The notes beneath the pieces were generated by a model, which worked only from the letters and a program-made list of their open reading frames with translations, was not told the origin of the DNA and did not search any database. A stretch of DNA of 29,934 bases, taken from IMG/VR virus record IMGVR_UViG_3300020450_000064, positions 1 to 29,934 of that record; one strand, 5' to 3'. Both the position numbers and the translations under genes were made by a program. The stretch is from a virus. Of the stretch, positions 6,829 to 29,934 are shown piece by piece. Each line of letters begins with the position of its first letter. Positions within the stretch are counted from its first letter, which is position 1.

Positions 6829-8192
6829 ATCTAGAAGTTACCATACTAAATAATCTGATATCAAATGAAGAGTTTACTCGCAAGGTATTGCCTTTTTTGA
6901 AATCAGATTATTTTACTGTACGATCATACAAGATAATCTTTGCTGAAATTCATGAGTATATTTCTAATTACAATGCATTACCTTCTCTGAATGCATTAAG
7001 TATTGAGTGTCAAGAGAGGACTGATCTAACTGAAGATCAATTTAAAGATATTATGGAGGTGTTAAGTGGCTTATCCAATGAGAAAGCAGAACTGGATTGG
7101 ATCGTTGATACAACAGAAAAGTGGTGTCAGGAGAGGGCGATTTATCTCTCGCTTATGGAGAGTGTCAAGATCGCAGATGGACAGGATGAAAAGAGGGATA
7201 AGGGGGCTATTCCACAAATACTAAGTGATGCGTTAGGTGTGTCGTTTGACCAAAATGTAGGTCATGATTACTTACAAAACTACGAAGAAAGATACGACTT
7301 CTACCATAAGACTGAAGAAAAGATTCCTTTTGACTTGGAGTTCTTCAACAAGATTACAAAGGGTGGTCTTCCTAACAAGACTCTCAATGTTGCTCTTGCA
7401 GGGACTGGTGTGGGTAAGTCTCTTTTTATGTGCCATGTCACTAGTAGTTGTTTGCTCCAAGGTAAGAACGTTCTCTATATTACTATGGAGATGGCAGAAG
7501 AAAAGATTGCCGAAAGAATAGATGCTAATCTACTGAACGTTCCTATTCAAAAACTACATGATTTACCACGAGCAATGTACGAGAATAAAATATCTGCATT
7601 AAGTAAAAAGACTCAAGGTAAATTAATTATCAAAGAATATCCTACAGCATCTGCACATGTAGGACATTTTAAATCATTATTAAATGAACTAGAACTAAAA
7701 AGAAATATTAAACCTGATATCATATTCATTGACTATCTAAATATATGTGCCTCCCAGAGATACAAAGGATCTATAGTAAATTCATACACATATGTTAAGG
7801 CAATCGCAGAAGAATTACGTGGTCTCGCAGTTGAAACGAATGTTCCAATCGTCACCGCTACTCAAACTACTCGCTCAGGTTTTGGGAGCAGTGATGTTGA
7901 TCTTACTGACACAAGCGAGTCTTTCGGTCTCCCTGCAACTGCTGACCTTATGTTTGCTCTTATTTCTACCGAAGAGTTAGAAGAACAGAATCAAATAATG
8001 GTCAAGCAATTAAAGAATAGATACTATGATCCTACTTTAAACAAAAGATTCTGTTTAGGTATTGACAGATCTAAGATGAGATTGTATGATGTTGATGAAG
8101 CACAGAAAGATCTCGTTGACGCAGGTGTTGAAGATAAGATCATTAAAAAAATTTCTGGTAAAAAATCCTTCGCTGAATTAAAGTATGATTGA
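6825..8192 (+). CDS. gp41: Replicative DNA helicase gp41 (DnaB family)
   Basis: 455 residues, matching T4 gp41 (about 475) in size. An N-terminal helical domain (1-150) precedes the RecA-type ATPase. Walker A is AGTGVGKS (192-199), Walker B is IIFIDYLN (299-306, D303), and the DnaB-type H4 segment is VTATQTTRSGFGSSD. ITMEMAEEKIAER matches the conserved helicase motif 1a. It moves 5'-3' on the lagging strand as a hexamer and recruits primase gp61, encoded downstream. The start ATG overlaps the oxygenase stop as ATGA. The last 8 bases overlap mazG. Confidence 0.96.
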   Translation: MNLEVTILNNLISNEEFTRKVLPFLKSDYFTVRSYKIIFAEIHEYISNYNALPSLNALSIECQERTDLTEDQFKDIMEVLSGLSNEKAELDWIVDTTEKWCQERAIYLSLMESVKIADGQDEKRDKGAIPQILSDALGVSFDQNVGHDYLQNYEERYDFYHKTEEKIPFDLEFFNKITKGGLPNKTLNVALAGTGVGKSLFMCHVTSSCLLQGKNVLYITMEMAEEKIAERIDANLLNVPIQKLHDLPRAMYENKISALSKKTQGKLIIKEYPTASAHVGHFKSLLNELELKRNIKPDIIFIDYLNICASQRYKGSIVNSYTYVKAIAEELRGLAVETNVPIVTATQTTRSGFGSSDVDLTDTSESFGLPATADLMFALISTEELEEQNQIMVKQLKNRYYDPTLNKRFCLGIDRSKMRLYDVDEAQKDLVDAGVEDKIIKKISGKKSFAELKYD

Positions 8193-8586
8193 TTTCTTAA
8201 AGTATACAAAATTTGTTAATGCTGTAACATCAAATGAAAGTAAGTACGGTGGACATTTTAAAGATCGTATAAAAGAATTAGATTCTAAAGACTTTGCCTC
8301 ACATAGAGCATTAACTGCTGCACTTGGATTGTGTGCAGAGTCAGGAGAATTTACTGAAATAGTAAAGAAGATATTATTCCAAGGTAAACCAGTTACTCAA
8401 GAAAATCTATTTCATATGAAACGTGAACTAGGTGATATCATGTGGTATTTTATACAGGCATGCATAGCACTAGATGTTTCACCAGAAGAGATCATAGAAA
8501 TGAATGTAGATAAATTAAAGAGTAGATATCCTGGCGGAGAGTTTGATGTTCACTACTCAGAAAATAGAGAGAAAGGAGATCTATGA
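8185..8586 (+). CDS. mazG: MazG-type nucleotide pyrophosphohydrolase
   Basis: 133 residues, single MazG domain. The metal-binding helices are clear: E52/E55 in LCAESGEFTEIVKK, and E81/D84 in MKRELGDIMWYF. These enzymes hydrolyse NTPs or dNTPs, or possibly (p)ppGpp, to monophosphates with Mg2+. Cyanophage MazG has been proposed to modulate host ppGpp, but later biochemical work favoured dNTP substrates such as dGTP and dCTP, consistent with recycling host nucleotides. It overlaps gp41 by 8 bases and the next small gene by 4. An AGGAGA-like site near its end serves that gene. Confidence 0.95.
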   Translation: MIDFLKYTKFVNAVTSNESKYGGHFKDRIKELDSKDFASHRALTAALGLCAESGEFTEIVKKILFQGKPVTQENLFHMKRELGDIMWYFIQACIALDVSPEEIIEMNVDKLKSRYPGGEFDVHYSENREKGDL

Positions 8587-8735
8587 ATTGTTGGCACTGT
8601 AAAACAGAATTAATATGGTCAAGTGATTATGATGTCGAGGATCTAAATGATGGAGAAGAGTCTGAGTATGATTTTTTTACCATCCTTACTTGTCCTAAAT
8701 GTTTATCTTACTATGAGGTATTTCACCACAAATAA
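8583..8735 (+). CDS. Small zinc-ribbon protein after mazG
   Basis: 50 residues, with ATGA overlap with the mazG stop and a strong AAAGGAGAT ribosome site. It begins MNCWHCKTELIW and ends with LTCPKCLSYYEVFHHK, giving two CxxC pairs about 37 residues apart, a treble-clef or zinc-ribbon layout. The centre is very acidic (DYDVEDLNDGEESEYD), which could mimic nucleic acid or bind a basic partner. A tiny zinc-ribbon gene next to mazG is seen in other phages, from memory. Function unknown. Confidence 0.78.
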   Translation: MNCWHCKTELIWSSDYDVEDLNDGEESEYDFFTILTCPKCLSYYEVFHHK

Positions 8736-9496
8736 TGGCATACTTAGTTCACCCCCTACCACCTAGAAAAGTTTGGGTAAAAAAAGAATATCTTTATGAT
8801 CTAGAAAAAGGTCATGGGGAACTTACACCTGGTATATGGATATCTGTAAGAAGTATACAGGCAAAAGCACTATACTTTGAGACATTACTTACTGACTATG
8901 GTGCACTGTTTGACAAGTTACCCTTGAGTGCATTTGTATGGAAACCAGATATTGATTGGGATAATCAATTACCATTAGATGTATTAGAACTATGGGATTG
9001 TTTTGACTATAACATTACAGTTGTAGAGAAACCTATACTAGGTAGATGTCAGTTCTTTGGTAAGGATAAGAAGATGCATCCTGGCGAGTATGAATTTACT
9101 ATCGACACTGCACATCCTGATTTTTCTGTACTAGATGTAAACTTTTCAGAGCATGATCCAGAGCATAAGACATTTAATATCATTGCACTAGACAACGGAC
9201 AGTTCGCTGCACAACCAAATAATAGATGTCAGTTCTTTGATAACAGTTTGGTTGATAATGATAATCTTAAACAACCTGACTTCAAAGTATGCACACAGAA
9301 CTATGCAGTAGAGACACTGCCTAAGTGGTGGTCTGTAGGACATACAGATGAGTGGGCATATAAAACAGGAGAAGAGGAAGTTGAACTGCAGATAGAACCA
9401 GAGTTGGGAGAACCAGAAGTATACTGGTCAAGTAAGGCATTAGATGACTTGGATGAAATAAATAAAAATAAAAACGATGGCGAAGGCAAAGATTGA
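8735..9496 (+). CDS. Conserved cyanophage protein, unknown
   Basis: 253 residues, starting in a TAATG overlap with the zinc-ribbon stop. Trp- and acid-rich, with no signal peptide or membrane span. Two similar segments stand out, GRCQFFGKDKK and NRCQFFDNSLV, about 55 residues apart, suggesting an internal repeat with a Cys in each. The tail is acidic (EEEVELQIEPELGEPE), then Lys/Asn-rich. I recall homologues in other T4-like cyanophages but cannot assign a function. It overlaps the next gene by 20 bases. Confidence 0.75.
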   Translation: MAYLVHPLPPRKVWVKKEYLYDLEKGHGELTPGIWISVRSIQAKALYFETLLTDYGALFDKLPLSAFVWKPDIDWDNQLPLDVLELWDCFDYNITVVEKPILGRCQFFGKDKKMHPGEYEFTIDTAHPDFSVLDVNFSEHDPEHKTFNIIALDNGQFAAQPNNRCQFFDNSLVDNDNLKQPDFKVCTQNYAVETLPKWWSVGHTDEWAYKTGEEEVELQIEPELGEPEVYWSSKALDDLDEINKNKNDGEGKD

Positions 9497-10604
9497 TGCC
9501 AACCGAGGAGATTTATTTGAAGCATTTTTTGCAGCAGCAGTAGCAGCAAGATTTGTTAAGAGGATGGAGAAAAAAACTGAGAGGAAACTGCCTCTAGTGG
9601 AAGGTAAAGATGTTGATAAGGTTCTCACTGAAATGATGAAGAGAGGATATAAGAAAAAAGTAAATGATGTAGGTAGTGCAGTTATGGATACTGTATCAGT
9701 TAGCGTTTCTATACCTGCAAAGGCAACAGCATTTCTACAGAAGAAAGAGAACTGGAAAAAGGTAACTGATCTTAGGGATGGTGCTATTAGATTTGTTAAT
9801 GGTAATCAAAAGATCAATATGCAATCAAAAGATCTATCTCTTAATGTCAAAGATGATACTATAAAAGTAATAGCAGCAGGAACAGAAGATCAGAAAGGTA
9901 CTAAGGCAGACGTTAAGGTAGAAATAAAATCAAAAGATAAAAAATATAAGACTACAGATTACTCTCTTAAAGTATCTGGTGGTGAACAGTTTCATCAGGT
10001 GTCTGGATTAGGATTTGATAAGTTTATCAATATATTTGGTGAGATGGGACTGAGTGTTAAAGAATCTGAAAAAATATATGAGAAGAAATTGACTGAGTTC
10101 TTTGATAGTGAAGTATATACTAAGAAATATTCTAGTAGAGAAGATGCTGAGAAAACTGGTGGTGGTGATAATTTAAAAGAATCAGCAAGGGTTGTATATG
10201 AACAGGCACAAAGAACACTTGAGAAAGGATTGAACGCAAACTTTGAATCAGATGTAAAGAAAAAGTTTGCAGACTATATTGTATTTGGATTGTCTAGGAA
10301 TGTAGAGACTGAACTAGTTAAATTTGAGAGTGAAAAAGAAGTTAAGAGTTTTGTTATTAATGAACAGTTCAAAGAACAACTACTACAAGGACGTTATACT
10401 ACTGAACTAGTTAAGACAGGTAGTCCTACTGTTAAAATATACCGTGCAGATGATAATGGTAAGAAGTTAGCAGGTAAAGAAAACTTTCTCATACAAATCA
10501 GATATAAACTTGAGGTTGCTAGTAGTTCATCTCAAGGTACTAAAGTGTATAAGTTCTACCCAAGGCACTATCTAGAGGCACAATCTGGTATGTTTTCACT
10601 TTAG
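9477..10604 (+). CDS. Conserved protein of unknown function, 375 aa
   Basis: The protein begins MAKAKIDANRGDLFEAFFAAAVAARF, an Ala-rich helix seen, from memory, at the start of several marine-phage proteins. The middle (about 110-190) is Lys-rich and beta-like (NVKDDTIKVIAAG, KADVKVEIKSK). The C-terminal third ends in beta-rich FLIQIRYKLEVASSS and KFYPRHYLEAQSG. No Cys, no membrane span and no catalytic motif were recognised. It sits between replication genes and the modular Lys-rich proteins, so a virion or DNA-associated role is possible but unproven. Confidence 0.72.
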   Translation: MAKAKIDANRGDLFEAFFAAAVAARFVKRMEKKTERKLPLVEGKDVDKVLTEMMKRGYKKKVNDVGSAVMDTVSVSVSIPAKATAFLQKKENWKKVTDLRDGAIRFVNGNQKINMQSKDLSLNVKDDTIKVIAAGTEDQKGTKADVKVEIKSKDKKYKTTDYSLKVSGGEQFHQVSGLGFDKFINIFGEMGLSVKESEKIYEKKLTEFFDSEVYTKKYSSREDAEKTGGGDNLKESARVVYEQAQRTLEKGLNANFESDVKKKFADYIVFGLSRNVETELVKFESEKEVKSFVINEQFKEQLLQGRYTTELVKTGSPTVKIYRADDNGKKLAGKENFLIQIRYKLEVASSSSQGTKVYKFYPRHYLEAQSGMFSL

Positions 10605-20411: not shown

Positions 20412-21552
20412 ACCTAAAGGAATGACTGTATTTAATCGAGTAAAAGTAGAAACTACTAAACAACCTATGTTTTTTGGAGCACCATTGAGTGTTCAACGTT
20501 ATGACAATTATAGATATCCTACATTTGATAGGTTGACACAACAACAGTTAGGATATTTTTGGAGACCAGAAGAGGTTTCTTTACAAAAAGATCGTGCAGA
20601 TTATCAAAACCTTACAGATAATCAGAAGCATATCTTTACTAGTAATTTAAAGTATCAGATCATGCTTGATAGTGTACAAGGACGTGCACCAGGTATGGCT
20701 TTTATACCATACTGTTCTTTACCAGAACTAGAAGCATGCATGCAGGTATGGCAATTTATGGAGATGATTCATAGTAGATCATACACATATATTATTAAGA
20801 ATGTATATCCAGACCCATCAGTTGTCTTTGATACTATTCTTGATGATGAGAAGATCATGTCTAGATCAGAATCTGTAACTCAATCATATGATGAGTTCAT
20901 AGATTATGCACAAGAGTACAGTAGTAGTAGTTTATGGACAAAGGATGGTAAGGGATCTCCTACTGCTAAGTGGACAGTAAAAGATTTAAAAAGAAAATTA
21001 TATCTTGCAGTTGCTAACGTTAATATCCTAGAGGGTATTAGATTCTATGTAAGTTTTGCATGCTCATTTGCTTTCGGTGAGAACAAACTTATGGAAGGAT
21101 CAGCAAAGATACTATCTCTTATCTCTAGAGATGAATCACAACACCTAGTTCTTACTCAACAAATATTAAAAAATTGGGAAAAGGGTGACGATCCAGACAT
21201 GATAGAGATAGCTAAAGAGGAAAGGGGAACTGTCTCTAAGATGTTTGAGAAGTGTGTCAACGAAGAGAAGGCATGGGCAGACTATCTATTTAAAGATGGT
21301 AGTATGATTGGATTAAATGCTAAACTGTTATATAATTATGTGGAGTGGATTGCTAACCGTCGTATGAAAGCGATTGGTTTAAAAACCATATACGATCAAC
21401 CATTGAGGAACAATCCTTTACCTTGGACTGAACACTGGTTAAACAGTAAGGGTCAACAAAATGCACCTCAAGAAACGGAGATCGAATCTTATGTCGTTGG
21501 AGGAATCAAACAAGATGTCAAATCAGACACCTTCGCAGGATTTAAACTTTAG
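20392..21552 (+). CDS. nrdB: Class Ia ribonucleotide reductase small subunit NrdB
   Basis: 386 residues, GTG start overlapping nrdA by 20 bases, with GGAGGAAGA just upstream as ribosome site. Diiron ligands: D93 (IMLDSV), E124 and H127 (FMEMIHSRSY), E214 (ILEGIRF), E248 and H251 (SRDESQHL). Y131 aligns with the radical tyrosine Y122 of E. coli, so this is a tyrosyl-radical class Ia enzyme. The C-terminal tail DTFAGFKL should dock onto NrdA. All key residues are present. Confidence 0.97.
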   Translation: MSPAKSEPKGMTVFNRVKVETTKQPMFFGAPLSVQRYDNYRYPTFDRLTQQQLGYFWRPEEVSLQKDRADYQNLTDNQKHIFTSNLKYQIMLDSVQGRAPGMAFIPYCSLPELEACMQVWQFMEMIHSRSYTYIIKNVYPDPSVVFDTILDDEKIMSRSESVTQSYDEFIDYAQEYSSSSLWTKDGKGSPTAKWTVKDLKRKLYLAVANVNILEGIRFYVSFACSFAFGENKLMEGSAKILSLISRDESQHLVLTQQILKNWEKGDDPDMIEIAKEERGTVSKMFEKCVNEEKAWADYLFKDGSMIGLNAKLLYNYVEWIANRRMKAIGLKTIYDQPLRNNPLPWTEHWLNSKGQQNAPQETEIESYVVGGIKQDVKSDTFAGFKL

Positions 21553-21703
21553 TTTGGAAGAATGTAAGAAAGCAATCATAGATGCTGCTGAAGAGTATGA
21601 TAGATTGCTAGAAAAAGCAGGTAATGAATCACCTCCCGAAGGTACAGCAGAGGCAATGTGGGAGATGGAAAAGAAAAAGTGCAGACAGAGGGAGCAAGAA
21701 TGA
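21515..21703 (+). CDS. Small acidic helical protein after nrdB, unknown
   Basis: 62 residues from an ATG inside the last 38 bases of nrdB, with GGAGG 12 bases upstream. Acidic and helical (LEECKKAIIDAAEEYDRLLEKAG), then a basic tail (KKKCRQREQE). Overlapped by the next start as ATGA. The upstream frame stays open further, but the ribosome site favours 21515. No family recognised. Confidence 0.55.
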   Translation: MSNQTPSQDLNFSLEECKKAIIDAAEEYDRLLEKAGNESPPEGTAEAMWEMEKKKCRQREQE

Positions 21704-21867
21704 AGACGTATCACATCTATCTTAAAGAAGAATGTCTATTCAAAGATTTGAATGAAGAAGAGTTTGATGTGATATGGGGTAGAATATACAGGTCATACTT
21801 TAAGGATGATCTGACATACGTGTCTGTAATAGATCAAGAACTAGCAGCAGAAGAACATAGTTGTTAA
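21700..21867 (+). CDS. Small conserved-looking protein, unknown
   Basis: 55 residues, ATGA overlap with the previous stop and GGGAG ribosome site. MKTYHIYLKEECLFKDL then EEFDVIWGRIYRSYF suggests a small beta-alpha fold; it ends in Cys. It is the last gene of the primase-nrdAB unit, 13 bases before a new promoter. No terminator is visible between them, so read-through into the noncoding region is possible. No family recognised. Confidence 0.65.
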   Translation: MKTYHIYLKEECLFKDLNEEEFDVIWGRIYRSYFKDDLTYVSVIDQELAAEEHSC

Positions 21868-21880
21868 GTAAAAATACCTG

Positions 21881-21909
21881 TTGACAAATAATTAGGGTAA
21901 TGATATATT
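21881..21909 (+). promoter_or_regulatory. Sigma70-type promoter for the candidate noncoding RNA
   Basis: TTGACA (21881-21886), a 17-base spacer, and TATATT (21904-21909). An almost perfect host-type promoter with predicted start near 21916, at the base of the first hairpin. No gene follows for 350 bases, which points to an RNA product. Confidence 0.85.
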
Positions 21910-21914
21910 ATAAA

Positions 21915-22175
21915 TGTGCCTGATCAGCACATCGGGAGTGACTGAATAAACTTACTGGCATATAGCTAGTTAAGGTGATGAGACACAGGTGGTGCTGCTC
22001 CTAGGGAACTAGGAGAATCGACTTACCAGTCGGGTCTCAGGCAGAGATGTTTTTCTAACTGTAGAAATGCCCATCTCTTGTTGGTATACAGGATTCCAAC
22101 CTCCCTCTTTACCCAACAACCAAAAATAAGCGTGGGAATAATATCCCAACTGGAGGGTTCGCATCCTCCTTTTTA
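21915..22175 (+). ncRNA. Candidate structured noncoding RNA, about 260 nt
   Basis: Framed by a promoter (21881) and a terminator (22152), with no reading frame of note. Visible helices: TGTGC/GCACA (21915, 21927); ACTGGC/GCTAGT with one G-U (21954, 21965); TGAGAC/GTCTCA (21979, 22034) enclosing two perfect hairpins, CTCCTAG-GGAA-CTAGGAG (21998-22015) and CGACT-TACC-AGTCG (22019-22032), thus a three-way junction; AGAGATG/CATCTCT (22043, 22072) enclosing TTTCTA-ACTG-TAGAAA; TTGTTGG/CCAACAA (22078, 22113); TGGGA/TCCCA (22133, 22144). I do not recognise it as tmRNA, 6S, RNase P or a group I intron. Function unknown; a regulatory or decoy RNA is possible. Confidence 0.75.
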
Positions 22176-26412: not shown

Positions 26413-26420
26413 TATAAATA
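26413..26420 (+). promoter_or_regulatory. T4-type late promoter TATAAATA
   Basis: Exact late-promoter octamer 21 bases before the ATG at 26442 and just after a membrane-protein stop codon. It would place the 63-residue gene and the halogenase group under late control. Confidence 0.75.
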
Positions 26421-26441: not shown

Positions 26442-26633
26442 ATGTCGGCAGATAAAGGAAATGCAATCACATGGGTTGCAACAAGAAAGGTAGATGATTA
26501 CCTTGAGTACCTAGTATCAGCAACTGCATGGAACCCAGACAAGAGGTTCGCAAAAATATTTGATACAAAAACAAAAGCAAGAGCATTCTTAAAAGAGTGT
26601 GGACAAAAAGGAACTGTTCGTAAACACGCATGA
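26442..26633 (+). CDS. Small conserved-looking protein, unknown
   Basis: 63 residues from the ATG at 26442 (the frame is open from a TTG at 26421, inside the promoter region). AITWVATRKVDDYLEYLVSA, then FAKIFDTKTKARAFLKECG: a small beta-beta-alpha-like fold, basic at the end. First gene after the late promoter and overlapping the oxygenase start as ATGA. No family recognised. Confidence 0.62.
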   Translation: MSADKGNAITWVATRKVDDYLEYLVSATAWNPDKRFAKIFDTKTKARAFLKECGQKGTVRKHA

Positions 26634-27214
26634 CAGTAAGGAAGATACCTTTAATCACACCAATAGCATTATCAAGCGTTCCAAATCATGAATCCATTAA
26701 GTCTAACTTGATGGATTTAATTAATTCTTGTGATGCAAGAAGAATTTTAGATGAGAAAGTTAATACTTTAGATATTACTAGGTGTGATTATGACATGGAA
26801 ATACCTAATGAGGATTTCGTAGACAACCCAAGACCTTGGGTTGATTATCTGCGACCACATTTAGTTCCTGTTATCCAAGAGATATATGACCAGTTAGGAT
26901 TTGATACTCTACAGGTACATAAGATATGGTTTCAACAGTACGACACTGAGTCAATACATGGATGGCATGTGCATACTTATGCTCAGTGGACTAGCGTATA
27001 TTATCTTGATCTTCCAGATGAATCACCACGAACAGAAATAATAAATCCATTTACACAGAACGATATACAAACACTAGAAATTAAGGAGGGTGACGTTGTT
27101 ATGTTTCCAAGTTATGTGATACATCAAGCACCTAGAAATAAAGGAACTAAGACTAAGACTATAATTAGTTGGAATAGTTGTGCTGACATTAGACCTGGTT
27201 ATGAAGTTCAATAG
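26630..27214 (+). CDS. Putative 2OG-Fe(II) oxygenase beside the halogenase
   Basis: 194 residues resembling the 2OG-FeII_Oxy_5 (TIGR02466-like) family. The H-x-H segment H113-V-H115 with WTSVYYLDLP matches that family's HxH...SGVYYL motif, and H165 in FPSYVIHQAP is the distal His; KTIISWN closes the sheet. Such enzymes are predicted oxygenases of unknown substrate. Starts in an ATGA overlap with the previous gene and overlaps the halogenase by 14 bases, so the two are tightly coupled. Confidence 0.78.
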   Translation: MTVRKIPLITPIALSSVPNHESIKSNLMDLINSCDARRILDEKVNTLDITRCDYDMEIPNEDFVDNPRPWVDYLRPHLVPVIQEIYDQLGFDTLQVHKIWFQQYDTESIHGWHVHTYAQWTSVYYLDLPDESPRTEIINPFTQNDIQTLEIKEGDVVMFPSYVIHQAPRNKGTKTKTIISWNSCADIRPGYEVQ

Positions 27215-28718
27215 TATTGTAATTGTAGGTGGTGGTAGTGCAGGATGGATGACTGCTGCTACTTTAGTTAAAGTATTTCCAGACAAAAAGATAACAGTAA
27301 TAGAACCAGAGAAACAATCTGGTATTGGTGTAGGTGAGAGCACTACACAATTAATGAGAAGGTGGCAAGAATTATTAGAGATACCTAATGAAGATTTTAT
27401 AACCAAGTTTGATGGAACTAATAAACTTGCTATAAAATTTGAAAATTTTCATAAAAAAGGTGACTCATTTTACTATCCCTTTGGTCGTATAGATCAGAGG
27501 CATTACAATGTACAAGAATGGTTTGCACATCAGTATCTAAGTAAGAAACCTTTTGAAGATTTTGTAAATGATATGTCACCCATATCAGAATGCTTAGAGA
27601 ACAATACAGTTCCAGAACAAATTGACTTTTGGAAATTAGATAAGGATGCTGCATGGCACTTTGACACTCATAAATTCTATACCTATTTGCGTGATGAATA
27701 TTGCATACCTAGAGGAGTAAATGTAATCAAGGGAGAAGTTTACTACACTCTATTAGATGAAGAGAAGTATATCAAAGGTGTTATATTAGGTAATGATGTA
27801 ACAGTTATAGGTGATCTATACTTTGACTGTTCTGGATTCAATCGTGTCTTAATACAGGATGCACTTAAAGTTCCTTGGGTTGAGTTTAATAATAAAACAT
27901 ATACTAATAGTGCATGGGCAGCACAGAGACCTTACAAAGATAAGGAAAAGGAATTAAAGTTATACACAAACTCAGTTGCTATGTCTAGTGGATGGGTATG
28001 GGAGATACCACATTGGAATAGTATGGGAACTGGATATAATTATTCTGATGAACATATTGATAAGTATGATGCACTAGACGAGTTTAAAAGATATCTTGGT
28101 CCTGCTGTTGCAGAGGAGATGGAGTTTAAACATATCAAGACTAGGAATGGTATGAGTGAGAGGATGTGGGTACGTAATTGTGTCAGCATAGGATTGAGTG
28201 GTGCATTTATAGAACCATTAGAATCAAATGGATTGATGAGTATACATGAGTTCCTACTTGTGTTTTGTAACATTGCTGAAGGTAAAGATACACTCAATAG
28301 TTTTGATGCACATTCATTTAATCATGTGTGTAGAGAACAGTTCTTATACTTTGCAGACTTCATTACCTTACACTATGCTATGACTGCTAGAAATGATACT
28401 GCCTTCTGGCATGACATACAAATGCAAGACTTTACTGATAGTCCTTTACTGAAACAGGTATATGATATACGTGGAGGATCTTTCTGGAATCTACCTAAGA
28501 CACTTACCTTTGAAAATTTAAACGCTACTCTTTATATGATTGCAGGACATAAAATCAATCCATATACTCAGGTCAAGTTATCTAACATGAAGTTTTGGGA
28601 TGAGGGATTTAATATGAAGACAGAGAATTTAGGTAGTGTTATTCAAAGATACAATGAGATAAAGAAAGGTCTACAGTTCCCATCAGCAGTGGAGTATTAT
28701 GGAAATTATCACAGATAA
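27201..28718 (+). CDS. prnA: Flavin-dependent tryptophan-halogenase-like enzyme
   Basis: 505 residues from the ATG at 27201; a GTG upstream is less likely. FAD site VGGGSAGWMTAA (GGGSAG at 10-15) and GVGESTTQ; halogenase motif WVWEIP (265-270, the WxWxIP signature that blocks monooxygenase activity). K75 in TNKLAIKF aligns with catalytic Lys79 of PrnA and E341 in EPLESNG with Glu346. Known members use FADH2, O2 and chloride or bromide to halogenate tryptophan or other indoles. All key residues are present; the substrate, free or protein-bound, is unknown. Trp-halogenase genes have been noted in some cyanophages. Confidence 0.9.
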   Translation: MKFNSIVIVGGGSAGWMTAATLVKVFPDKKITVIEPEKQSGIGVGESTTQLMRRWQELLEIPNEDFITKFDGTNKLAIKFENFHKKGDSFYYPFGRIDQRHYNVQEWFAHQYLSKKPFEDFVNDMSPISECLENNTVPEQIDFWKLDKDAAWHFDTHKFYTYLRDEYCIPRGVNVIKGEVYYTLLDEEKYIKGVILGNDVTVIGDLYFDCSGFNRVLIQDALKVPWVEFNNKTYTNSAWAAQRPYKDKEKELKLYTNSVAMSSGWVWEIPHWNSMGTGYNYSDEHIDKYDALDEFKRYLGPAVAEEMEFKHIKTRNGMSERMWVRNCVSIGLSGAFIEPLESNGLMSIHEFLLVFCNIAEGKDTLNSFDAHSFNHVCREQFLYFADFITLHYAMTARNDTAFWHDIQMQDFTDSPLLKQVYDIRGGSFWNLPKTLTFENLNATLYMIAGHKINPYTQVKLSNMKFWDEGFNMKTENLGSVIQRYNEIKKGLQFPSAVEYYGNYHR

Positions 28719-29352
28719 AACTATCTTTGATATAAACAACCCATACCCAGAGACCTTTAAGGTCGGTGAGTTAGAGGTATTAATATTCAATGATTTTTTA
28801 AAGAAACCTGATGAGTATAAGAAACTCTTAAAACAAATACCTGTCTTTGAATCTGATTACTTTTATCCTACTGCATCACCTGGTTGGAGACAGTTAATAC
28901 CATATGAGTTCTTTCTTAAGATAGAAAGTTTACTTAGTAATTGGGTAGGTTTTAATCCTTGGGTAGAACAATCATTTACTAACATCTATAAGGATAAGAT
29001 GAGATGTAACTGTAAAGCATGGTACCCTCATCATGATAGTAAAGAATATGTATTGAACTTATGGTTGAGTGAAGGTCAAGGTGGCACAGCATTTTATACT
29101 TGGAATAATTATGCTCAAGGTATACATTTACCAGAACATATACAAGATAAAGTTTTTAGTAAACAAGTTCGTGGTTCATTTGATTATGAAGAGTTTGTTG
29201 GTGATGAAAACTGGAAGATGTATCACCTTGAACCCATACAATACAATCGTGCTATCTTTTATAATGGAAATTATTTTCACTCAGCATACTTACCGAAACA
29301 ATCATACACTGATGACATCAGGTATTCTCTAGTGCTCATGGGGAATGAGTAG
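28699..29352 (+). CDS. DUF6445-like oxygenase-fold protein
   Basis: 217 residues, overlapping the halogenase end by 20 bases. The 2OG-oxygenase metal set looks complete: H111-H112-D113 in WYPHHDSKEYVLNLWL (H111/D113), H194 in NGNYFHSAYLP and R208 in DDIRYSLVLMG. GQGGTAFYTWNN is the sheet connecting them. DUF6445 proteins, as I recall, often sit beside tryptophan-halogenase genes in bacteria such as Caulobacterales and Xanthomonadales, matching this location. Reaction unknown. Confidence 0.8.
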   Translation: MEIITDKTIFDINNPYPETFKVGELEVLIFNDFLKKPDEYKKLLKQIPVFESDYFYPTASPGWRQLIPYEFFLKIESLLSNWVGFNPWVEQSFTNIYKDKMRCNCKAWYPHHDSKEYVLNLWLSEGQGGTAFYTWNNYAQGIHLPEHIQDKVFSKQVRGSFDYEEFVGDENWKMYHLEPIQYNRAIFYNGNYFHSAYLPKQSYTDDIRYSLVLMGNE

Positions 29353-29590: not shown

Positions 29591-29934
29591 ATGACAACTC
29601 TAAACACAAGAACCTCCCAACAGGGTGGTTTACTAGCAGGCTGGCCTCAGTTCTGCGAATGGGTTACTTCAACAAACAACAGAATCTATGTTGGTTGGTT
29701 CGGAGTACTCATGATCCCATGCTTACTCGCAGCAGCAGCATGTTTCATCGTTGCATTCATTGCAGCACCTCCTGTCGATATCGACGGAATTAGAGAGCCT
29801 GTAGCAGGTTCATTCTTATATGGTAACAACATCATCTCAGGTGCAGTTGTTCCATCCTCAAACGCAATCGGTCTACACTTCTACCCAATGTGGGAAGCAG
29901 CAACAGTAGATGAGTGGTTGTACAATGGTGGTCC
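29591..29934 (+). CDS. psbA: Photosystem II D1 protein PsbA, 5' part
   Basis: The first 114 codons of about 360, cut by the window end. [19 protein letters not shown] then [20 protein letters not shown] (first transmembrane helix), [16 protein letters not shown] and [21 protein letters not shown] are diagnostic of D1. Cyanophages express psbA during infection to replace the fast-turning host D1 and keep photosynthetic energy flowing to phage replication. No intron or in-frame stop in the visible part. It forms a functional set with the hli cluster upstream. Confidence 0.98.

Follow-up and report, generated by a model that had tools for sequence, protein, structure and literature searches.

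A halogenase-oxygenase gene trio beside psbA in a T4-like cyanophage as a candidate detached module of a tail-fibre maturation cassette

Three overlapping genes on the plus strand of a virus record of 29,934 bases (IMGVR_UViG_3300020450_000064; the whole stretch is referred to as the window) encode a 2-oxoglutarate (2OG) oxygenase-type protein, a flavin-dependent halogenase (FDH), and a protein of the DUF6445 family. The window carries T4-like cyanophage genes, namely those for DNA polymerase, UvsX, a DnaB-like helicase, NrdA/NrdB, and transaldolase, which are followed by the trio and then by psbA. On balance, the trio is best regarded as a module split off from a cassette for tail-fibre maturation, whose enzymes would halogenate and hydroxylate fibre residues. 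Because relatives of these genes share one operon with glycine-rich (Gly-rich) fibre genes, the enzymes probably decorate a host-gripping protein and not a small molecule, and because the trio adjoins psbA, they would act on the fibre in trans.

The first gene, P0001 (26630..27214), encodes a 2OG-FeII_Oxy_5 protein of 194 amino acids (PF13759, phrog_81). It is followed by P0002 (27201..28718; PF04820), a VirX1-like FDH of 505 amino acids with an ESNG motif, and by P0003 (28699..29352; PF20043), a DUF6445 protein of 217 amino acids with the HxD...H...R residues of 2OG-Fe oxygenases. The overlaps are 14 bp between P0001 and the FDH and 20 bp between the FDH and P0003. The FDH start is taken as the ATG at 27201, where the alignment of relatives begins; the list of open reading frames (ORFs) gave a GTG at 27180. 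With this start, the three overlapping genes described in an earlier note on this DNA are recovered in position and family, and all Pfam scores exceed the curated cut-offs.

The fibre context is seen in the FDHs closest to P0002 outside the psbA setting, which are 60-64% identical to it (63% in the loci L203, L204, and L125). Gene order, orthology, and intact motifs are directly observed. In L203 and L204, an orthologous P0001-P0002 pair (42% and 63% identity, respectively) closes an unbroken one-strand operon of about 16 kb. The operon is headed by three Gly-rich fibre genes (two and part of a third in L203), a gene for a chaperone-like protein of 163 amino acids, one for a 74-residue protein, and two VirX1-type FDHs. 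These are followed by genes for a DUF6065-like protein, an 81-residue protein, 2OG, DUF6445-like, 2OG, JmjC, and 2OG-type proteins, and two DUF6445 proteins, and finally by two 2OG-type genes, a gene for 242 amino acids (231 in L204), a 2OG gene, and the orthologues of P0001 and P0002. About eleven oxygenase-type genes (2OG, JmjC, DUF6445) stand between the tandem FDHs and the terminal pair. L125 is likewise a one-strand operon, headed by a Gly-rich gene with matches to phrog_863 (“tail fiber assembly”) and phrog_21412 (“tail fiber protein”); the 63% FDH stands two genes later, in the first-of-tandem place. The proposed tail-fibre modification cassette, with orthologues under Gly-rich fibre genes, is thus present in L203, L204, and L125. 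L205 with L126 forms a fibre-headed array converging on a 2OG-FDH module, and in L148 a Gly_rich_2 gene is followed downstream by 2OG, FDH, and DUF6445 genes, arranged as in the window. A JmjC_2/Cupin_8 protein was also noted within the fibre cassettes (L203 9468-10190, L014:383-1105).

The linkage extends to phage records at large. Whole-record profile searches of 21 phage records gave 24 FDH sites, which were compared with 5000 random placements. At 10 sites, the distance from the FDH to a Gly_rich_2 fibre gene is at most 2 kb (0.81 expected), and at 14 a PF13759 (2OG) gene is as near (3.07 expected); in the same records, a PF13759 gene lies no more than 6 kb from 14 of the 20 Gly-rich clusters, as against 5.67 expected. 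For all three, p≤2e-4, the floor of the test. Around one record per phage species was picked by hand (23 records, from 65 records and further matches); seven short FDH pieces (two each in S-ShM2, S-SSM7, and P-TIM40, one in Sf-FP1) were left out of the count of sites, and 2OG and Gly-rich matches below cut-off were left out of the test. Among 72 de-duplicated IMG/VR FDH loci, 56 have an oxygenase-type gene within 3 kb, and in 39 such a gene is the immediate neighbour; 47 have a Gly-rich gene within 5 kb, where “Gly-rich” is partly a composition rule that went wrong at least once (L011); 42 have both, and 13 have a DUF6445-like gene within 5 kb. The loci were drawn from the 80 best of at least 586, with L009 and L011-L015 added, so the sample leans to the window's clade.

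One member of such cassettes is VirX1, a characterised cyanophage iodinase (Syn10 CPUG_00131, PDB 6QGM) described in PMC8407142, in the consulted passages of which no native substrate is given. The Syn10 cassette comprises two Gly-rich proteins, a 164-residue protein, then VirX1 with a second FDH, CPUG_00132, and after the FDHs DUF6065-like, 2OG_Oxy_5, DUF6445-like, and 2OG-type genes; the DUF6065-like label is our own and has no Pfam match behind it. The CPUG_00131 translation agrees with the 6QGM chain over the rows compared. The same plan is found in S-RIM44, P-TIM40, Sf-FP1, P-RSM6, S-CREM1, S-WAM1, S-SZBM1, and Sf-FR1 and, more loosely, in Sf-CH11, and several of the upstream genes were named tail fibre or collagen-like by their depositors. 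In the reservoir phage S-SRM01 (L040 7989-10570), the FDH lies between a “putative tail fiber” and a “gp37-gp38 adhesin tip complex.” In phage Pam3, a Gly-rich distal adhesin goes with a chaperone of about 162 residues (gp24/gp25; PMC9608196), and here genes for 163-169 residues follow the Gly-rich genes.

P0002 is a flavin-dependent halogenase by family, and formation of a carbon-halogen bond is predicted from its sequence. It matches PF04820 with 317.6 bits (E 1.8e-94; cut-off 21), and its best PDB match is VirX1 6QGM (E 8.7e-80). It carries the set of motifs that mark FDHs, namely, GxGxxG (read as GGGSAGW), WxWxIP (WVWEIP, W265-P270; 27993..28010), a catalytic-type Lys75 (codon 27423..27425), and Glu341 (codon 28221..28223). 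GxGxxG is given as an FDH motif in PMC8407142. The earlier note had reported an intact WxWxIP, Lys75, and Glu341; all are kept and correctly numbered, and Lys75 and Glu341 (K74 and E340 in P0002 without its Met) do not vary among the 15 phage FDHs that were aligned. The ESNG variant occurs throughout the window's FDH clade and in 75 of the 84 sampled loci; its Asn occupies the position of PrnA Thr348, a halide-site residue. Compared by eye with the motif tables of PMC8269204, which include 5- and 6-Trp-FDHs, P0002 has none of the free-tryptophan motifs (ATFS.., HPFE., YHG..): it shows STTQLM and YPFGR instead, and neither YYHG nor HYHG occurs in it. The free-tryptophan halogenases PrnA, RebH, and Thal share with it PF04820, WxWxIP, Lys, and Glu, but differ in motifs and in the C-terminal part, the HMMER matches ending by residue 433.

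VirX1 has the family and the catalytic Lys and Glu in common with P0002, and is encoded in a fibre-FDH-oxygenase operon, but the two are only 31% identical, and VirX1 has ESTG where P0002 has ESNG. In a tree of 118 rows (quick method, SH-aLRT), P0002 falls not inside the VirX1 branch, where 13 of 14 members are fibre-linked, but in a neighbouring separate branch of 12 rows (support 98). With it in this branch are FDHs of Syn10, S-RIM44, and P-TIM40, each the first of a tandem located behind fibre genes. Two of them, CPUG_00132 of Syn10 and Np420711_101 of S-RIM44, have ESNG and stand just after Gly-rich fibre genes, but are 34-37% identical to P0002 and are not directly followed by DUF6445; no FDH of a named phage exceeds about 40% identity to P0002. 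The “fibre” label of L011 in the tree was discarded, as it came from an unrelated Gly-rich-looking minus-strand ORF; the L011 cassette is of the L203/L204 type, where true fibre genes stand further upstream. Shortened FDH-like ORFs of 367-391 amino acids were met in S-ShM2 (21027-21989), S-SSM7 (168252-169244), and P-TIM40 (183737-184705); the middle part is absent from their profile match, and they are possibly non-halogenating relatives. A Deltaproteobacteria metagenome-assembled contig with chromosome-like genes (L044) contributes an ESNG FDH that groups inside the viral branch, through gene transfer or misbinning.

By profile and fold, P0001 is a 2OG-Fe(II) oxygenase. It matches PF13759 with 47 bits (E 3.4e-12; cut-off 27), and its structural model (pLDDT 87) has 360 PDB matches at E≤0.001, in which two uncharacterised marine proteins come first and are followed by 2OG-type oxygenases including prolyl hydroxylases. 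Its metal site consists of HxH (not HxD), which on reading is common in the family, with a distal H165, and a Lys stands where relatives usually have the 2OG-binding Arg. For these two reasons, the activity of P0001 is less certain. P0001 also weakly matches phrog_274 “DNA endonuclease V.” Names of this kind, in PHROG style, recur as “ferrochelatase” or “DNA endonuclease V” in or near oxygenase cassettes (L014:4123-4848, SfFP1_98, and genes adjoining the S-H38 FDH), where they look like mislabels.

P0003 matches PF20043 with E 5.2e-10. The complete H-D-H-R set attributed to it earlier is borne out: none of H111, D113, H194, and R208 varies across the 19 aligned sequences, three of which are bacterial. 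Its model has a modest pLDDT of 63; on reading, the 50 Foldseek matches listed are 2OG/Fe-type enzymes, with E 2.7e-3 for the best of them. Both phrog_1644 and RefSeq call P0003 and gp213 of NC_008296.2 a “minor coat protein.” This name is contradicted by the DUF6445 profile, the HxD..H..R residues, and the fold matches, and it is probably a misnomer that is spreading for an oxygenase-fold protein.

The trio is not a chance association, because it recurs. At least two more cyanophage contigs from the environment have it in the same order, L007/L008 (91%, 97%, and 92% identity) and L009 (62%, 78%, and 73%); L004 and L005 hold the FDH-DUF6445 half at the contig edge. In L009 (8110-9188), two ORFs adjoining the trio resemble, on reading, an orotate phosphoribosyltransferase and a PurN-type protein. 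The similar bacterial neighbourhoods evoked in the same note are real for the FDH with DUF6445: DUF6445 is present in 28 of 39 FDH-bearing bacterial genomes and lies within 10 kb of a listed FDH in at least 20 of 46 places (at least 15 of the 28 genomes). In the scan of 80 bacterial loci, one (L073) was seen to unite FDH, DUF6445, and 2OG_Oxy_5. The 39 genomes derive from 40 loci chosen out of the 80, and the bacterial statistics rest on them because ORF picking was poor in many high-GC loci, where no FDH was called. Since DUF6445 occurs near the FDH in bacteria, the partnership is not confined to the phage setting. In L073 and L107, the FDH adjoins DUF6445 as in the phages, but these loci have multiple FDHs and no fibre; TonB-receptor-like genes were read nearby in both and in L121.

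From these arrangements, we infer a chemistry and a substrate. With reduced flavin, oxygen, and sea-water halide, the FDH would add a halogen to an aromatic side chain (Tyr, His, or Trp) exposed at the receptor-binding tip of the fibre. Tyr167, His197, and His220 of the Gly-rich domain (numbering of the L125 protein) are invariant in 13 of 13 sequences and may be suggested as candidate targets. P0001 and P0003 could hydroxylate nearby fibre residues or prepare the FDH's site. The enzymes would act late in infection, as late expression is presumed, and the likely gain would be a changed binding or stability of the adhesin. In a wider form, the proposal is that marine tailed phages possess a multi-enzyme line which halogenates and hydroxylates Gly-rich fibre tips, that the trio is a detached late unit of it, and that the native substrate of VirX1 is the tail fibre; this we consider evenly balanced between true and false. 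The same even balance applies to the composition of such a line, with one to three FDHs and as many as a dozen oxygenases of the 2OG, JmjC, and DUF6445 kinds.

Several observations weigh against the tail-fibre assignment. No fibre gene stands beside the trio, and none is among the ORFs of the 30-kb fragment, a statement that does not include a PF21722 search of the window; none was found in the 35.8-kb contig, also a fragment, of the closest relative. The closest relative of P0003 in named phages (61.5% identity) lies near psbA in Syn9 and Syn10 with no FDH beside it. Of the 24 phage FDH sites, 14 are not within 2 kb of Gly_rich_2, and the FDHs of S-MbCM6, S-PM2, and Syn1 are near photosynthesis genes or tRNAs. 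Shared ancestry inflates the p-values of the placement test, for which random placement does not correct. In L127, the FDH (60%; 7315-9521) adjoins a family-8 glycosyltransferase and sugar-type genes, without a fibre. The Gly-rich fibre and 163-residue chaperone-like proteins could not be tied by sequence to a solved adhesin or chaperone, as their profiles matched no PDB chain. For the virion proteome of S-SZBM1, the published text names the products of genes 51-54, just upstream, and not the Gly-rich 48/49, and no long tail fibre was seen by its authors in transmission electron microscopy (PMC9146016). The missing entries may reflect absence, few tryptic sites, or modified peptides overlooked by a plain search.

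The main rival is metabolite tailoring, in which a small indole or phenol would be halogenated during infection on the way to an antibiotic-like or signalling compound, with the FDH as the halogenating enzyme and the oxygenases finishing the product. It agrees with the FDH family membership, with the auxiliary-gene region in which the trio lies, and with the acceptance by VirX1 of many small aromatics in vitro (PMC8407142), and it is the printed view: cyanophage “tryptophan halogenases” have been counted among the auxiliary metabolic genes, and an antibiotic role has been ascribed to them as speculation (PrnA, pyrrolnitrin, “antibiotic protection”; PMC2984593, PMC9964418). However, no other pathway gene was seen beside the trio, its first-site and PFG motifs are VirX1-like and unlike those of the free-tryptophan FDHs (PMC8269204), and its relatives sit in fibre operons, which makes this explanation unlikely. 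The earlier note had left the choice between an indole metabolite and a protein residue; the fibre operons favour the latter, and no support for an indole was found. A protein target need not be the fibre, and the trio could modify another phage or host protein, e.g., of the photosystem, transport, or transcription. Its position beside psbA, the HTVC008M FDH that lies between terminase genes and overlaps a 2OG-type gene, and, among the fold matches of P0001, a prolyl hydroxylase whose structure was solved together with EF-Tu are in line with this, but the repeated fibre linkage would be left unexplained, and we hold it slightly less likely still.

That the ESNG clade no longer halogenates and yields a hydroxylated or otherwise oxidised product is improbable: the prevalence of ESNG in the sampled loci and the Lys of P0001 at the 2OG-binding position would suit it, whereas P0002 retains the flavin motif, WxWxIP, Lys75, and Glu341, and the characterised phage FDH that matches it best, VirX1, is an active enzyme (PMC8407142). 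Least of all is expected of a glycan or nucleotide-sugar substrate, which is suggested by the glycosyltransferase or sugar-type genes adjoining the FDHs of L127 and S-SSM7, just two contexts among those examined gene by gene. The detached fibre-maturation module thus remains the favoured account, and the purpose of the trio, which the earlier note had called unknown, is less open than before, though unproven.

The trio lies within a photosynthesis-gene region, the 5′ part of psbA occupying 29591..29934 (plus strand). It is preceded on the same strand by a 63-residue ORF (26442..26633) of unknown function (phrog_15230), whose stop overlaps the ATG of P0001. About 21 bp before this ORF, and upstream of the four-gene run, stands the T4-late-promoter-like TATAAATA (26413..26420, plus strand). 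The late promoter assumed earlier stands in this sense, as TATAAATA is kept in the same place in L007 and L009 has AATAAATA there, though its count across the window (3 found, 3.07 expected) is at chance and was rejected as proof. The DNA from about 26413 onward is matched in cyanophages without the trio at that spot; the ORF is probably co-transcribed with the trio and not specific to it. It is an unlikely substrate of the trio, and an unlikely precursor of a ribosomally synthesised and post-translationally modified peptide, given its phrog_15230 family and DNA-level matches in trio-less cyanophages, with no wider precursor search made. No PADLOC match pointed to a defence function.

Halogenase genes have been reported in 20 of 153 cyanophages (PMC10452541), EGLN3-like 2OG oxygenases are abundant in marine phages (PMC12774648), and 2OG modulation has been proposed (PMC3037559). 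Among the papers listed by searches of open-licence PMC, none links halogenases to tail fibres in its title or abstract opening. The operon structure names a candidate substrate class for the long-puzzling viral halogenases, which can be checked on existing phage isolates. If the tail-fibre assignment is true, we know of no earlier example of a phage whose receptor-binding protein is halogenated. The large number of 2OG oxygenases in marine phages would then find an explanation, and part of what is catalogued as “auxiliary metabolism” would have to be counted with virion maturation.

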